Origin: Oceanibaculum nanhaiense
GTDB taxonomy: Bacteria > Pseudomonadota > Alphaproteobacteria > Oceanibaculales > Oceanibaculaceae
DNA length: 64,000 nt
NCBI RefSeq assembly: GCF_002148795.1
Contig: NZ_MPOB01000001.1
Coordinates: 62,001-126,000 of the forward strand
Direction: 5' to 3'
Shown: positions 33,555 through 59,240 of the stretch, in pieces
How the letters are laid out: each line of letters begins with the position of its first letter
Numbering within the stretch: the first letter of the stretch is position 1
The notes under the pieces: generated by a model
Database searches by the model: none
Told to the model about the DNA's origin: nothing
The model's input: the letters and a program-made list of their open reading frames with translations, nothing else
Program-made: the position numbers and the translations under genes

Positions 33555-33575
33555 TTTAGAACGACTATATATAAA
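33555..33575 (+). promoter_or_regulatory. irr promoter region with half ICE-like site
   Basis: TTTAGAA at 33555-33561 matches one arm of the Irr-controlled (ICE) motif; the second arm is not conserved. It is followed by TATATATAAA, a likely -10 region. Autoregulation of irr is possible but weakly supported. Confidence 0.35.
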
Positions 33576-33622: not shown

Positions 33623-34054
33623 ATGGACAGACCCCGCACCCACACCCACAACATCGAGCGGCTGAAGGCCGCCGGGCTGCGCCCGACCCGGCAGCGCCTG
33701 GCGCTCGCCCAGCTGCTATTCGCCAATGGCGACCGCCATGTAACGGCCGAGCAGCTGCATGGCGAAGCGCTGGAGGCGAAAGTGCCGGTATCGCTGGCCA
33801 CGGTCTATAACACGCTGCACCAGTTCTCCGAATCGGGGCTGTTGCGGGAAGTCGTGGTGGAGGCCAGTCGGTCCTATTTCGACACCAATACCGGCACGCA
33901 TCATCATTTCTTCGCCGCCGACAGCGGCACCCTGATGGATATCCCGGCCGGCGAGATCACGCTGGGCGACCTGCCGCTGCCGCCCGAGGGCACCCGGATC
34001 GACAGTGTGGAAGTGATCATCCGCGTCCGCCGCGCGCCGCAGACGGCCGGCTGA
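33623..34054 (+). CDS. irr: Iron response regulator Irr (Fur family)
   Basis: Alphaproteobacterial Fur-family regulator that binds ICE motifs when iron and heme are scarce. The 143-aa protein has the Fur winged helix (GLRPTRQRLALAQLLF, PVSLATVYNTLHQFSESGLL) and the Irr-type HHH at 93-95 in NTGTHHHFF. It contains no cysteine at all, so it has neither the Cys-Pro heme regulatory motif of Bradyrhizobium Irr nor a CxxC zinc site. Next to it are the fabABI operon (divergent) and the rubrerythrin cassette downstream, which carries an ICE-like site. PerR is the alternative, but the HHH segment favours Irr. Confidence 0.85.
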   Translation: MDRPRTHTHNIERLKAAGLRPTRQRLALAQLLFANGDRHVTAEQLHGEALEAKVPVSLATVYNTLHQFSESGLLREVVVEASRSYFDTNTGTHHHFFAADSGTLMDIPAGEITLGDLPLPPEGTRIDSVEVIIRVRRAPQTAG

Positions 34055-34107: not shown

Positions 34108-34127
34108 TTGTGAGAATGAGTTTCATT
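34108..34127 (+). promoter_or_regulatory. Fur-box-like operator upstream of the rubrerythrin cassette
   Basis: The core GAATGA-GTT-TCATTC (34114-34128) is a perfect inverted repeat with a 3-base centre, preceded by TGA; TGAGAATGAGTTTCATT closely resembles the classical Fur box. It also fits the TGA-N9-TCA form described for RirA. Just downstream is AT-rich TATATAAA. A Fur gene is present at 58.8 kb. Confidence 0.6.
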
Positions 34128-34163
34128 CAAAATATATAAATGTAACAAGCAGTTAAATTTGGC

Positions 34164-34180
34164 TTTGGAACGATTCAAAT
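34164..34180 (+). promoter_or_regulatory. ICE-like (Irr) box upstream of the rubrerythrin promoter
   Basis: TTTGGAA-CGA-TTCAAAT matches the TTTAGAA-N3-TTCTAAA pattern in both arms (TTnGAA and TTCnAA). It ends 3 bases before a -35 hexamer, a position suited to an activator or to occlusion of RNA polymerase. The Irr gene is about 110 bases upstream. Confidence 0.55.
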
Positions 34181-34183
34181 TTA

Positions 34184-34212
34184 TTGACTCCACCCGCCCT
34201 TCGCTCCATATC
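34184..34212 (+). promoter_or_regulatory. Putative rubrerythrin promoter
   Basis: TTGACT (34184-34189) and CATATC (34207-34212) with a 17-base spacer. The -35 is good and the -10 weak, as expected for a regulated promoter. The start codon is about 115 bases further on, leaving a leader of roughly 110 bases. Confidence 0.45.
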
Positions 34213-34328
34213 CAGTCTCGTTAATGTGATCGACAGCCCGGCGCCGACTCCCAGCCATCGATCCGCAATCGGACATCACGGCATCGGCTCCGGCTTCATA
34301 CATGCGAGAGCAGGAAGAGGAGAGAATC

Positions 34329-34751
34329 ATGTCGAATCTGAAGGGTTCCAAGACCTTCAATAATCTGAAGGAAGCCTTCGCCGGCGAGAGCCAGGCGAAC
34401 CGCCGCTACCTCTATTTCGCCCAGAAGGCCGACGTCGAGGGCTACAATGACGTGGCCGCCGTGTTCCGCTCCACCGCCGAGGGTGAGACCGGCCATGCGC
34501 ACGGCCATCTGGAATTCATGGAGAGCGTTGGCGACCCGGCCACCGGCGAGCCGATCGGCGCCACCGACCTGAATCTGAAGGCCGCGATCGCCGGCGAGAC
34601 GCACGAGTACACCGACATGTACCCGGGCATGGCGCGCACCGCCCGCGAGGAAGGCTTCGACGAGATCGCCGACTGGTTCGAGACCCTGGCGAAGGCCGAG
34701 AAGAGCCACGCCGGCCGCTTCCAGAAGGCCCTCGACAGCCTGAACAGCTAA
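34329..34751 (+). CDS. Rubrerythrin-like diiron protein lacking the rubredoxin domain
   Basis: Ferritin-like four-helix diiron protein; rubrerythrins reduce hydrogen peroxide. The 140-aa protein has all expected metal-ligand positions: E20 ([10 protein letters not shown]), E53 and H56 ([10 protein letters not shown]), E90 and E93 (AGETHEY), E124 and H127 (KAEKSHA). It ends after the helical domain, with no CxxC rubredoxin module, so its electrons must come from another protein. I start at [10 protein letters not shown]; a GTG or ATG further up adds nine charged residues. It heads a cassette with an Fe-S protein and DUF3501. Confidence 0.92.
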
Positions 34752-34882: not shown

Positions 34883-36223
34883 ATGAAGGAAGGCAGTCTC
34901 GAGGCGCCGACCCGCCACCCGCTGGCCTGGACCGACCCGGATTTCTATGACGAGGCGAAGCTCGACGAGGAGCTGCGCCGGGTTTTCGACATCTGCCATG
35001 GCTGCCGCCGCTGCTTCAATCTGTGCGACAGCTTCCCCCGTCTGTTCGACCTGATCGACGAATCCGAATCGGGTGAGCTGGATTCCGTCAGCTCGGCGGA
35101 TTTCAAGCCGGTCGTGGATGCCTGCACGCTGTGCGACATGTGCTTCCTGACCAAATGTCCCTATGTGCCGCCGCACGAATTCAACCTGGATTTCCCGCAT
35201 CTGATGCTGCGCTACCGCGCCATCGAGCGGAAGAAGCAGGGCACCCCCTTCGTGATGAAGCAGGTCACGGAGACCGACCGCAACGGCAAGCTGGCCGCCC
35301 CTGTCGCCGGCATCGCCAACTGGGCGACCGACACCAAGAACGGCCTGACCCGCGGCGTCATGCAGAGCGTCGCCGGCATCGACAAGCGCGCCGACCTGCC
35401 GAAATTCCATGCCAAGACCTTCACCCGCGCCGCCAAGAGCGACGTGCCGGAAGTGAACAAGGCCGCCCCGGCCTATGGCCGCAAGGCGGCGCTCTATGCC
35501 ACCTGCTTCGTGAACTACAACAACCCGGATACCGGCATGGCGGCGCGGCGCGTGCTGGCGAAGAACGGCGTCGAGACCGAGGTGGTCTATCCCTCCTGCT
35601 GCGGCATGCCGCAGCTGGAACAGGGCGATATCGAATCGGTGGCGAAGAAGGCGCGCAGCGTCGCCCAGGAGATGAAGCCCTGGATCGACAAGGGCTATGA
35701 CATCGTGGCACTGACGCCGTCCTGCGCGCTGATGCTGAAATTCGAATGGCCGCTGATCCTGCCGGACGACGAGGATGTGAAGCGGCTGTCGGCGGCGACG
35801 AAGGATATCAGCGAGTACGTCGTCGATATCGCCAAGAAGGAAGGACTGGCCGAGGGCATCCAGGCGCTGGATGGCGGTGTCACCGTACACATCGCCTGCC
35901 ATGCACGGGCCCAGAATATCGGCCAGAAGGCGGCCGAGATGCTGCGCCTGATCCCCGACACCAAGGTCTCGGTGATCGAGCGCTGCTCCGGCCACGGCGG
36001 CTCCTGGGGCATCTTCAAGGAGAATTACGACATCGCCCTGAAGGTCGGTAAGCCGGTCTCGCGCCAGGCGCTGAAGGAGGCCAACAAATACGTCGTCTCC
36101 GAATGCCCGCTGGCCGGCATGCACATCCTGCAGGGCATGGAGGAGATCGAGAAGGGCGCCGACGCCATTCCCAGCCAGTCCGAACATCCCATCGAACTGG
36201 TCGCCAAGGCCTACGGGCTCTGA
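34883..36223 (+). CDS. Double [4Fe-4S] / heterodisulfide-reductase-like (CCG domain) electron-transfer protein
   Basis: 446-aa soluble protein resembling GlpC and HdrD. The N-terminus holds two cluster motifs: C38-C41-C44-C48 and C81-C84-C87-C92. Two cysteine-rich domains follow. The first is C208, C239-C240-G, C281. In the second the CCG core is replaced by CSG (C339, C368-S-G-H-G-G, C408). No transmembrane segment is visible, so it is probably cytosolic. Position between rubrerythrin and DUF3501 suggests it passes electrons to the diiron protein, which is inference. GlpC itself is unlikely because no glpA or glpB is present. ATG preceded by AAGGGGAGAAG. Confidence 0.88.
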
Positions 36224-36253: not shown

Positions 36254-36850
36254 ATGATGCCCGCCGCAGCCAAGCAGATCACGCACGCGGATATCCTGCC
36301 GCTGCCCGACTATGTGAAGGTGCGCAAGGAACGCCGCAGCGCCGTCGTGGCGCTGAAGAAGAACCGGCGCCTGCCGGTCGGCCCGCACGCCACCTTCTAT
36401 TTCGAGAATTTCGACACGATGCTGAGCCAGATCCAGGAGATGCTCTACATCGAGAAGGGCGGCGACGAGCAGCTCGAGGATGAGTTGAGCGCCTACAACC
36501 CGCTGATCCCGCAGGGCAGGGAACTGGTCGCCACCGTCATGTTCGAGATCGATGACGAGGTGCGCCGCCGCCGTGTGCTGTCCACCCTGGGCGGCATCGA
36601 GCACCAAATGTTCATCAAGATCGGCAGCGAGACCGTGAAGGGCGTGGCCGAGGACGATCTCGACCGCACCACGGCGGACGGCAAGGCCTCTTCCGTGCAG
36701 TTCGTGCATTTCCCCTTCACCGAGGCGCAGATCGCGGCCTTCCGCAAGCCGGGCGCCGAGGTGGTGCTGGGCTTCAGCCACGAGAACTATCCGCATATGA
36801 CGGTGATGCCCGATGCCGTGCGCGAGGCGCTGGCCAAGGATTTCGACTGA
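36254..36850 (+). CDS. DUF3501 family protein
   Basis: Protein of unknown function, 198 aa, recognised by ITHADILPLPDYVKVRKERR at the start and by the conserved FYFENFDTMLSQIQEMLYIEKGG. It contains no cysteine, no signal peptide and no membrane helix, so it is a soluble cytosolic protein that does not itself carry an Fe-S cluster through Cys. It follows the Fe-S protein gene by 30 bases with an AGGAGACGGAGG ribosome site and is very probably cotranscribed. The ATG at 36257 is an alternative start. A role in assembling or regulating the rubrerythrin/Fe-S pair is possible but not shown. Confidence 0.85.
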   Translation: MMPAAAKQITHADILPLPDYVKVRKERRSAVVALKKNRRLPVGPHATFYFENFDTMLSQIQEMLYIEKGGDEQLEDELSAYNPLIPQGRELVATVMFEIDDEVRRRRVLSTLGGIEHQMFIKIGSETVKGVAEDDLDRTTADGKASSVQFVHFPFTEAQIAAFRKPGAEVVLGFSHENYPHMTVMPDAVREALAKDFD

Positions 36851-58805: not shown

Positions 58806-59240
58806 TTACTTAAGCGGGCGCCGGCGCGTCGAATTCAGCGGTATGCCGTAGAGCTCCAGGCGATGACCCACCAGCCGGTAACCGAGTTTCTCCGCGATCT
58901 CTTCCTGCAGCTTTTCGATTTCCTCGCTCTGGAACTCGACCACGGTGCGGGTTTCGATATCGATCAGATGATCATGGTGCTCTTCCGGCGCCTCTTCATA
59001 ACGCGCCCGACCGTCGCCGAAATCGTGCCGCTCCAGGATGCTCGCCTCTTCGAGCAACCGGACGGTGCGATAGACAGTGGCGATAGAGATGCGCGGATCG
59101 ATCGCCGTGGCGCGCTGATAGACCAGCTCGACATCGGGGTGATCGGTTGAATTGGACAGCACCTGCGCGATGACCCGGCGCTGCTCGGTCATCTTCAGGC
59201 CCTTTTCCAGGCACAAACGCTCAAGGCGTGACGGTTCCAT
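58806..59240 (-). CDS. fur: Ferric/manganese uptake regulator, Fur family (Fur/Mur)
   Basis: Metal-sensing repressor of 144 aa. The DNA-binding winged helix is about residues 15-80 (KMTEQRRVIAQVL, ISIATVYRTVRLLEE). The metal region has HDFGDGRARYEE, EHHDHL and GHRLELYGIPL. There is no CxxC structural zinc site; the only cysteine is C10. Many alphaproteobacterial Fur proteins respond to manganese (Mur) rather than iron, and sequence alone does not settle this. A strong GGGAGG ribosome site precedes the ATG. It is the second Fur-family member in the window beside Irr. Confidence 0.92.
   Translation of the reverse strand: MEPSRLERLCLEKGLKMTEQRRVIAQVLSNSTDHPDVELVYQRATAIDPRISIATVYRTVRLLEEASILERHDFGDGRARYEEAPEEHHDHLIDIETRTVVEFQSEEIEKLQEEIAEKLGYRLVGHRLELYGIPLNSTRRRPLK

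Follow-up and report, generated by a model that had tools for sequence, protein, structure and literature searches.

To our knowledge, studies of Irr have dealt almost solely with its role in global iron regulation, in rhizobia and Rhodobacter. PerR, its relative within the Fur family, classically represses rubrerythrin in other bacteria; PerR senses peroxide via a bound metal, whereas the signal for Irr is heme and its binding site another palindrome, the ICE, with a 7-3-7 layout. PerR-rubrerythrin systems resemble the locus described here in that a Fur-family peroxide regulator is set over rubrerythrin.

Heme-free Irr binds the ICE and represses or activates according to where the ICE is located, and in R. 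leguminosarum its DNA binding is lost with heme (PMC7762939). The class of targets that Irr represses consists of iron-storage, iron-export and peroxide genes; among the iron-protein genes under its repression are mbfA and bfr, and in Bradyrhizobium H2O2 leads to loss of Irr (PMC4902296). At R. sphaeroides ccpA the Irr box lies about 40 nt 5' of the 5' end, and expression is 1.8-fold up in an irr mutant under low iron (PMC3413700). These two systems, B. japonicum mbfA/bfr (PMC4902296) and R. sphaeroides mbfA/ccpA (PMC3413700), share with ours the Irr family, the ICE palindrome and targets in iron storage or export and peroxide defence, and the geometry at ccpA is close to that of the rbr promoter considered below. 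They differ in that irr is not described there as belonging to the target cassette, whereas here irr adjoins its target; here, moreover, the genome has very few ICE-type sites, the ICE lies directly against the -35 element, and a Fur box is added.

Fur and Irr are known to meet on one promoter, that of B. japonicum irr, where the logic is one of antirepression (Hohle and O'Brian 2010, as reviewed in PMC5599777). The target there is a different one, and Fur is Mn-dependent and represses irr (PMC5599777). In another alphaproteobacterium, Caulobacter, Fur directly activates iron-protein operons, with no Irr partner (PMC6120978). As regards the regulated genes, RBR-RFO-DUF3501 has been described as an 'aerobic-type' rubrerythrin cluster and predicted peroxide scavenger (Cardenas et al. 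2016, PMC5114695). That cluster holds the same three genes, including a rubrerythrin without rubredoxin domain, but no regulator or promoter is described and irr is absent from the text (PMC5114695); here a likely local regulator and its operator can be defined.

The cassette and its promoter

The window analysed is a stretch of 64,000 nucleotides from Oceanibaculum nanhaiense. Its cassette begins with rbr (34329..34751, + strand; Pfam PF02915), coding for a 140-aa rubrerythrin without rubredoxin domain. We take the start from an alignment of four genomes, which have in common an ATG at 34329 following a ribosome-binding site; the first in-frame ATG of the mechanical ORF is at 34302. Downstream follow a GlpC-like Fe-S oxidoreductase with a CCG domain, RFO (34883..36223, +), kept at this place, and a DUF3501 protein (36254..36850, +; Pfam PF12007, 211 bits) as conserved third gene. 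The combination of a rubrerythrin lacking the rubredoxin domain, an RFO with CCG domain and DUF3501 is that of the aerobic-type cassette, and the genes form a predicted non-heme peroxidase, or peroxide-defence, system.

The region 34108-34212 is probably the control region of this cassette, which would tie peroxide defence to iron and heme supply. A sequence-only reading of the DNA had described two palindromes here, followed by a -35 element, a 17-base spacer and CATATC, and this matches the letters. The first is a Fur-type box, TGAGAATGAGTTTCA (34111-34125), with GAATGA-GTT-TCATTC inside, a perfect palindrome at 34114-34128 and an exact spelling of TGA-N9-TCA. The second, TTTGGAACGATTCAAAT (34164..34180), reads TTTGGAA-CGA-TTCAAAT and resembles an ICE, the Irr box; neither palindrome is assigned to a strand. 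After the ICE-like site come the three bases TTA and then the -35 element TTGACT (34184..34189, +). The -10 element (34206..34212, +) is either CATATC (34207-34212, spacer of 17) or CCATAT (spacer of 16), the latter one mismatch from the alphaproteobacterial -10 CTATAT, and TCCATATCC is found in all four genomes.

In the rbr leader, between 34223 and 34270, there is a further genus-conserved block, GTGATCGAC..GCCCGG...TCGATCCGC, with the look of an inverted repeat. A structured leader RNA in the 5' untranslated region of rbr was considered and rejected, as there was no Rfam match and the folding energy was no different from that of shuffles.

Taken singly, the motifs are only moderately convincing in this genome, each being three mismatches off its consensus. 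The ICE departs at 3 of 14 positions from the palindrome TTTAGAA-N3-TTCTAAA; the Fur-type box, which has the 7-1-7 form, has three mismatches against the E. coli form TGATAAT-N-ATTATCA and two against TGAGAATGATTCTCA. A scan of the window at up to three mismatches gave two matches to the ICE consensus (34164 and 33555) against 0.10 expected, both beside irr, and one match to the Fur consensus against 0.38 expected. Genome-wide, plain ICE consensus matches at three mismatches (15 against 29 in the control) were not in excess, so an ICE cannot be claimed from the sequence of a single genome. An arm pattern, TTTNGAANNNTTCNAA, composed after the site had been seen, occurs twice in the 3.84 Mb genome against none in the control. 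One occurrence is the rbr promoter, where the pattern is found again in G001 and G003, thus in three of the four genus genomes; the other, kept in G001, has a glutamate-cysteine ligase gene on one side and a GntR-family gene on the other. The Fur-type pattern has 17 matches genome-wide against one in the control, with the rbr site within the best three, and elsewhere such sites adjoin a TonB receptor gene, a bfd-like gene and a PepSY-TM gene.

The best consensus ICE of the genome, TTTAGAACAGTTCTAAC (G000:C1:604672-604688, L088/L281), is followed by three bases and TTGGCA; it lies between the genes for glutamate-cysteine ligase and a GntR/FCD regulator and is kept in G001 (L280). This may be a second Irr target. 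At the bfd-like [2Fe-2S] gene (L121; G000:C5, about 60908) Fur-type boxes overlap the likely -35, a layout that is, judged from its sequence, the conventional Fur-repressed arrangement and would make a suitable control within this genome. A Fur-pattern match beside sdhC was considered as a parallel case of activation and set aside, since the likely promoter is upstream of it and the start codon near.

Conservation in the genus and across the class

The genus comparison rests on an alignment of four genomes, the only ones of the order in the collection. Both palindromes stand in blocks that are kept in all four while the flanks have changed: the first block reads TGAGAATGA(G/T)TTTCATTCAAAATAT and the second TTT(G/A)GA....TTCAAA, then TTGACT and TCCATATCC. 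For the wider comparison we used a first sample of 84 loci from two collections and a second of 67 genomes, sampled evenly over the class, some species being possibly common to both. The gene directly 5' of rbr is irr at 56 of 84 loci in the first sample and 57 of 67 in the second; in the even class-wide sample, the neighbour of irr is most often the peroxide-defence cassette.

Where irr is adjacent, the ICE is nearly always present. With up to three mismatches it was found in 53 of 56 promoters of the first sample (against about 2% of shuffles) and 49 of 57 of the second (against 2.2%), and 41 of the former 56 have it with 0-2 mismatches, compared with 0.36% of dinucleotide shuffles. Its distance to the -35 element is equally constrained. 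TTGAC follows the ICE after 3-6 bases in 51 of 56 cases (gap of 3 in 32, 4 in 14, 5 in four and 6 in one), TTGA follows after three bases in 33 of the second sample, and among 76 distinct promoters the gap is 3 in 50, 4 in 15 and 5 in seven. The position of the ICE directly 5' of the -35, which the sequence-only reading had pointed out, is thus near-fixed in orthologous promoters (3-5 bases). An Irr site at a nearly fixed place is found across most alphaproteobacterial families. From the recurrence of the ICE and its fixed gap to the -35 we conclude that, in all probability, this is an Irr box forming part of a composite promoter of fixed layout, and we have little doubt that Irr would bind the site at 34164..34180. 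The promoter itself, by its sequence, is intrinsically good at the -35 and -10 alike: 75 of 76 promoters (these having been picked by TTGA) have a -35 no more than one mismatch from TTGACA, and in 63 of 76 the -10 is within two mismatches, against about 13% in random sequence.

The Fur-type box has a patchier distribution. A Fur-type palindrome with up to three mismatches lies 5' of the ICE in 20 of 56 irr-adjacent promoters of the first sample (0.9 expected from shuffles) and in 13 of 57 of the second (1.0 expected), so that roughly one promoter in three or four has it, as do all four members of the genus. In the first sample the distribution of mismatches is sharply two-peaked, with no promoter at four mismatches, and the excess over shuffles is about 20-fold. 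The distance between the centres of the Fur and ICE sites is 15-26 bases in most box-bearing lineages, 32-50 in others and 54 in the genus. In another family the box stands 25-26 bases upstream in 7 of 7 irr-rbr loci, two of these genomes having the canonical 19-base Fur box GATAATGATAATCATTATC, exact or minus its last base. Fur boxes in the irr-rbr promoters of other lineages mean that the two-site arrangement recurs in several of them.

These comparisons show that both types of site are real, recurring before orthologous cassettes far above shuffles. The conservation that the sequence-only reading had asked for is borne out almost throughout in the case of the ICE; the Fur box shows it within the genus, and among other lineages only a minority have that box.

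Candidate regulators

Both cognate regulator families were said to be encoded in the window, and this holds with one qualification. Irr, from the gene at 33623..34054 (+; NF045678, NF045677, Pfam FUR), is over the curated cut-offs of both NCBIfam models, with 206 bits for NF045678 (cut-off 150) and 192 bits for NF045677 (cut-off 170). The product of fur (58806..59240, - strand), the candidate reader of the Fur-type box, is over the family cut-off of PF01475 (126 bits), but its top NCBIfam match, the ferric uptake regulator model, gives 94 bits against a cut-off of 146; it is therefore filed as Fur-family only, possibly Fur or Mur. Besides Irr and this Fur-like protein at 58.8 kb, the genome has one more Fur-family member, the third, located next to genes of zinc-uptake type. 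Fur probably binds the Fur-type box.

The window Irr has the histidine heme-binding motif, as GTHHHFF, and HHH is present in 140 of 157 related proteins. A Cys-Pro heme regulatory motif of the B. japonicum type is absent from it. CP occurs in only 4 of the 157, near the start of probably over-extended N-termini, and the motif is not universal in the family. Without it, Irr need not be degraded in the way seen in B. japonicum, and heme-dependent loss of DNA binding, by analogy with R. leguminosarum, appears the likelier route.

A second ICE-like site lies 5' of irr itself (33555..33571, +), with a perfect left arm and a degenerate right arm; the full site is found in G001 and only its TAGAA half in G002 and G003. 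Irr may possibly regulate its own gene through this site, and autoregulation seems, from the upstream sequences, to differ between lineages.

Repression or activation

We propose that Irr represses the rbr cassette and that Fe-Fur helps from the upstream box, a proposal to which, as a whole, we would give even chances. At low heme or iron, heme-free Irr made from the adjoining gene would bind the ICE, and the dimer, centred at about -47 and reaching the -35, would repress an otherwise strong promoter. Rising heme, or peroxide, would free the promoter from Irr, so that production of the non-heme peroxidase would coincide with iron availability and the threat of Fenton chemistry. Fur with bound iron, on its box centred near -101 in this promoter and near -66 in those of many relatives, would help to switch the promoter on or keep Irr off. 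Irr would most likely then be a local, PerR-like regulator of the cassette, and we infer that peroxide is a signal for it.

Four considerations lead us to favour repression: the good hexamers, the class of iron and peroxide targets that Irr represses, the behaviour of ccpA and the PerR precedent. That Irr acts as a repressor of rbr is somewhat better than an even bet. A positive input is chosen for Fur because its site is probably too far upstream for steric blocking of the promoter and because Fur activates in Caulobacter; an accessory role of this sort for iron-loaded Fur could equally well be right or wrong. Since the two sites are 54 bases apart in the genus, direct competition between Fur and Irr is unlikely there.

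The sequence-only reading had remarked that the ICE-like site is placed as that of an activator would be. A fuller version is that apo-Irr on the ICE contacts RNA polymerase and activates rbr at heme scarcity, when a non-heme peroxidase is needed as heme catalases fail, while Fe-Fur lowers the cassette at high iron. The near-invariant 3-base gap to the -35 in many families suits this, rigid spacing being more typical of activators, as does the location rule (PMC7762939); at hmuR/hmuT an ICE upstream of the promoter has a positive effect (PMC3836376). Rubrerythrin RNA is moreover 1.57-fold up under iron limitation in Ca. Pelagibacter ubique (PMC2864753), whose promoter falls outside this comparison; such a rise is the opposite of what the repression model would predict. 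However, the -35 and -10 are good, as where no activator is needed; the centre of the ICE, near -47, lies roughly half a helical turn away from where class II sites usually are; the targets that Irr represses are iron-protein genes (PMC4902296); and Irr does not activate ccpA, a case of similar geometry, when iron is low (PMC3413700). Position and rigidity thus fit activation, but position alone does not decide for it, since the good hexamers and the Irr and PerR precedents make repression at least as likely; we regard activation by Irr as a serious possibility, though one with the odds against it. Of the earlier view that the promoter integrates iron and heme status, the sites, the regulators and the position of the ICE stand, while an activator role drawn from position alone is not borne out, and the analysis turned up no sign either way of the manganese input that had tentatively been added; the known status of the cassette as a peroxide-defence unit and the wide occurrence of the arrangement had both escaped that view.

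Alternatively, only the ICE may be functional, the Fur-type box being a relic or serving another transcript, for instance one from the end of irr. Some two thirds of the promoters with irr adjacent do without a Fur box, and where both sites occur their spacing varies from 15 to 54 bases. Against this, the Fur block has been kept in 4 of 4 genus genomes amid changed flanks, the distribution over relatives is two-peaked and 20-fold above shuffles, and the box is found at all seven irr-rbr loci of another family. We consider this alternative unlikely.

The exact TGA-N9-TCA spelling also invites a reading of the upstream palindrome as an IRO box, recognised by RirA and not Fur. The four Rrf2 proteins of the genome score as IscR-like, NsrR/RirA-like, Rrf2 and SUF-regulator-like; by NCBIfam scores none is a RirA equivalog, the NsrR/RirA-like protein reaching 123 bits against a RirA cut-off of 193 and being tied with NsrR. 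RirA is also confined to Rhizobiales (PMC7762939), and canonical Fur boxes occupy the same place in relatives. As the genome is without a RirA equivalog, we reject this reading as highly improbable. Finally, a view of the two sites as AT-rich palindromes that arose by chance, in a promoter of the ordinary constitutive kind, might be argued from the three mismatches to each classical consensus and the lack of genome-wide enrichment of the plain ICE, but is already contradicted by conservation in the genus and beyond and has next to no likelihood.

Loci without adjacent irr

Where irr is not adjacent to rbr, the ICE is usually absent. At 8 of 28 such loci, mostly Caulobacteraceae-like, there is instead an OxyR-type site (ATnG-N7-CnAT-N7-ATnG-N7-CnAT, up to two mismatches), against 0.9% of shuffles. 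These sites lie within about 150 bases 5' of rbr (L029, L030, L040, L041, L062, L079, L019, L084), and in L084 the gene just 5' reads as OxyR, by eye and not by profile search, with the motif GHCFRDQVLEVC. The OxyR-type sites, together with oxyR in L084, support a peroxide-response function for the cassette and its regulator.

Other palindromes were seen at particular loci. Four divergent cassettes that have no irr (L061, L068, L076 and L080) have TTAGACTnAGTCTAA 30-70 bases 5' of rbr. Upstream of irr, Parvibaculum-like loci (L008, L010 and L012) have a palindrome close to TTTGTAATCnTTACAAA at a distance of about 40-80 bases, and in L020, L023, L038, L042 and L054 the palindrome is TTAGAAnnGTTCTAA.

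A tree of Irr (136 columns) is mostly unresolved, with non-adjacent Irr scattered among adjacent, and neither supports nor refutes an ancestral adjacency to rbr.

A possible origin of the arrangement

All parts of this arrangement are of known kinds. The class-wide order irr - ICE - TTGAC - rbr-RFO-DUF3501, with an optional Fur box and with replacement by OxyR, was not found in the literature examined, which excluded Rodionov et al. 2006. That work is reportedly a computational reconstruction of Irr and Fur regulation in alphaproteobacteria, and may contain part of the arrangement, such as Irr sites before rbr.

Tentatively, Irr may have begun as a local, PerR-like rubrerythrin switch in early alphaproteobacteria, in a unit irr - ICE - 3 bases - TTGAC - rbr-RFO-DUF3501 that most families would have kept. 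The global regulons of rhizobia and Rhodobacter would then have come later, with Fur boxes added in several lineages and OxyR replacing irr where the locus had lost it. While we hold this scenario to be less probable than not, the arrangement does offer a concrete hypothesis on the origin of Irr. The promoter would also serve as a compact and portable system for testing how Irr acts from a site abutting the -35, how Fur and Irr combine, and which signal induces the DUF3501 cassette.
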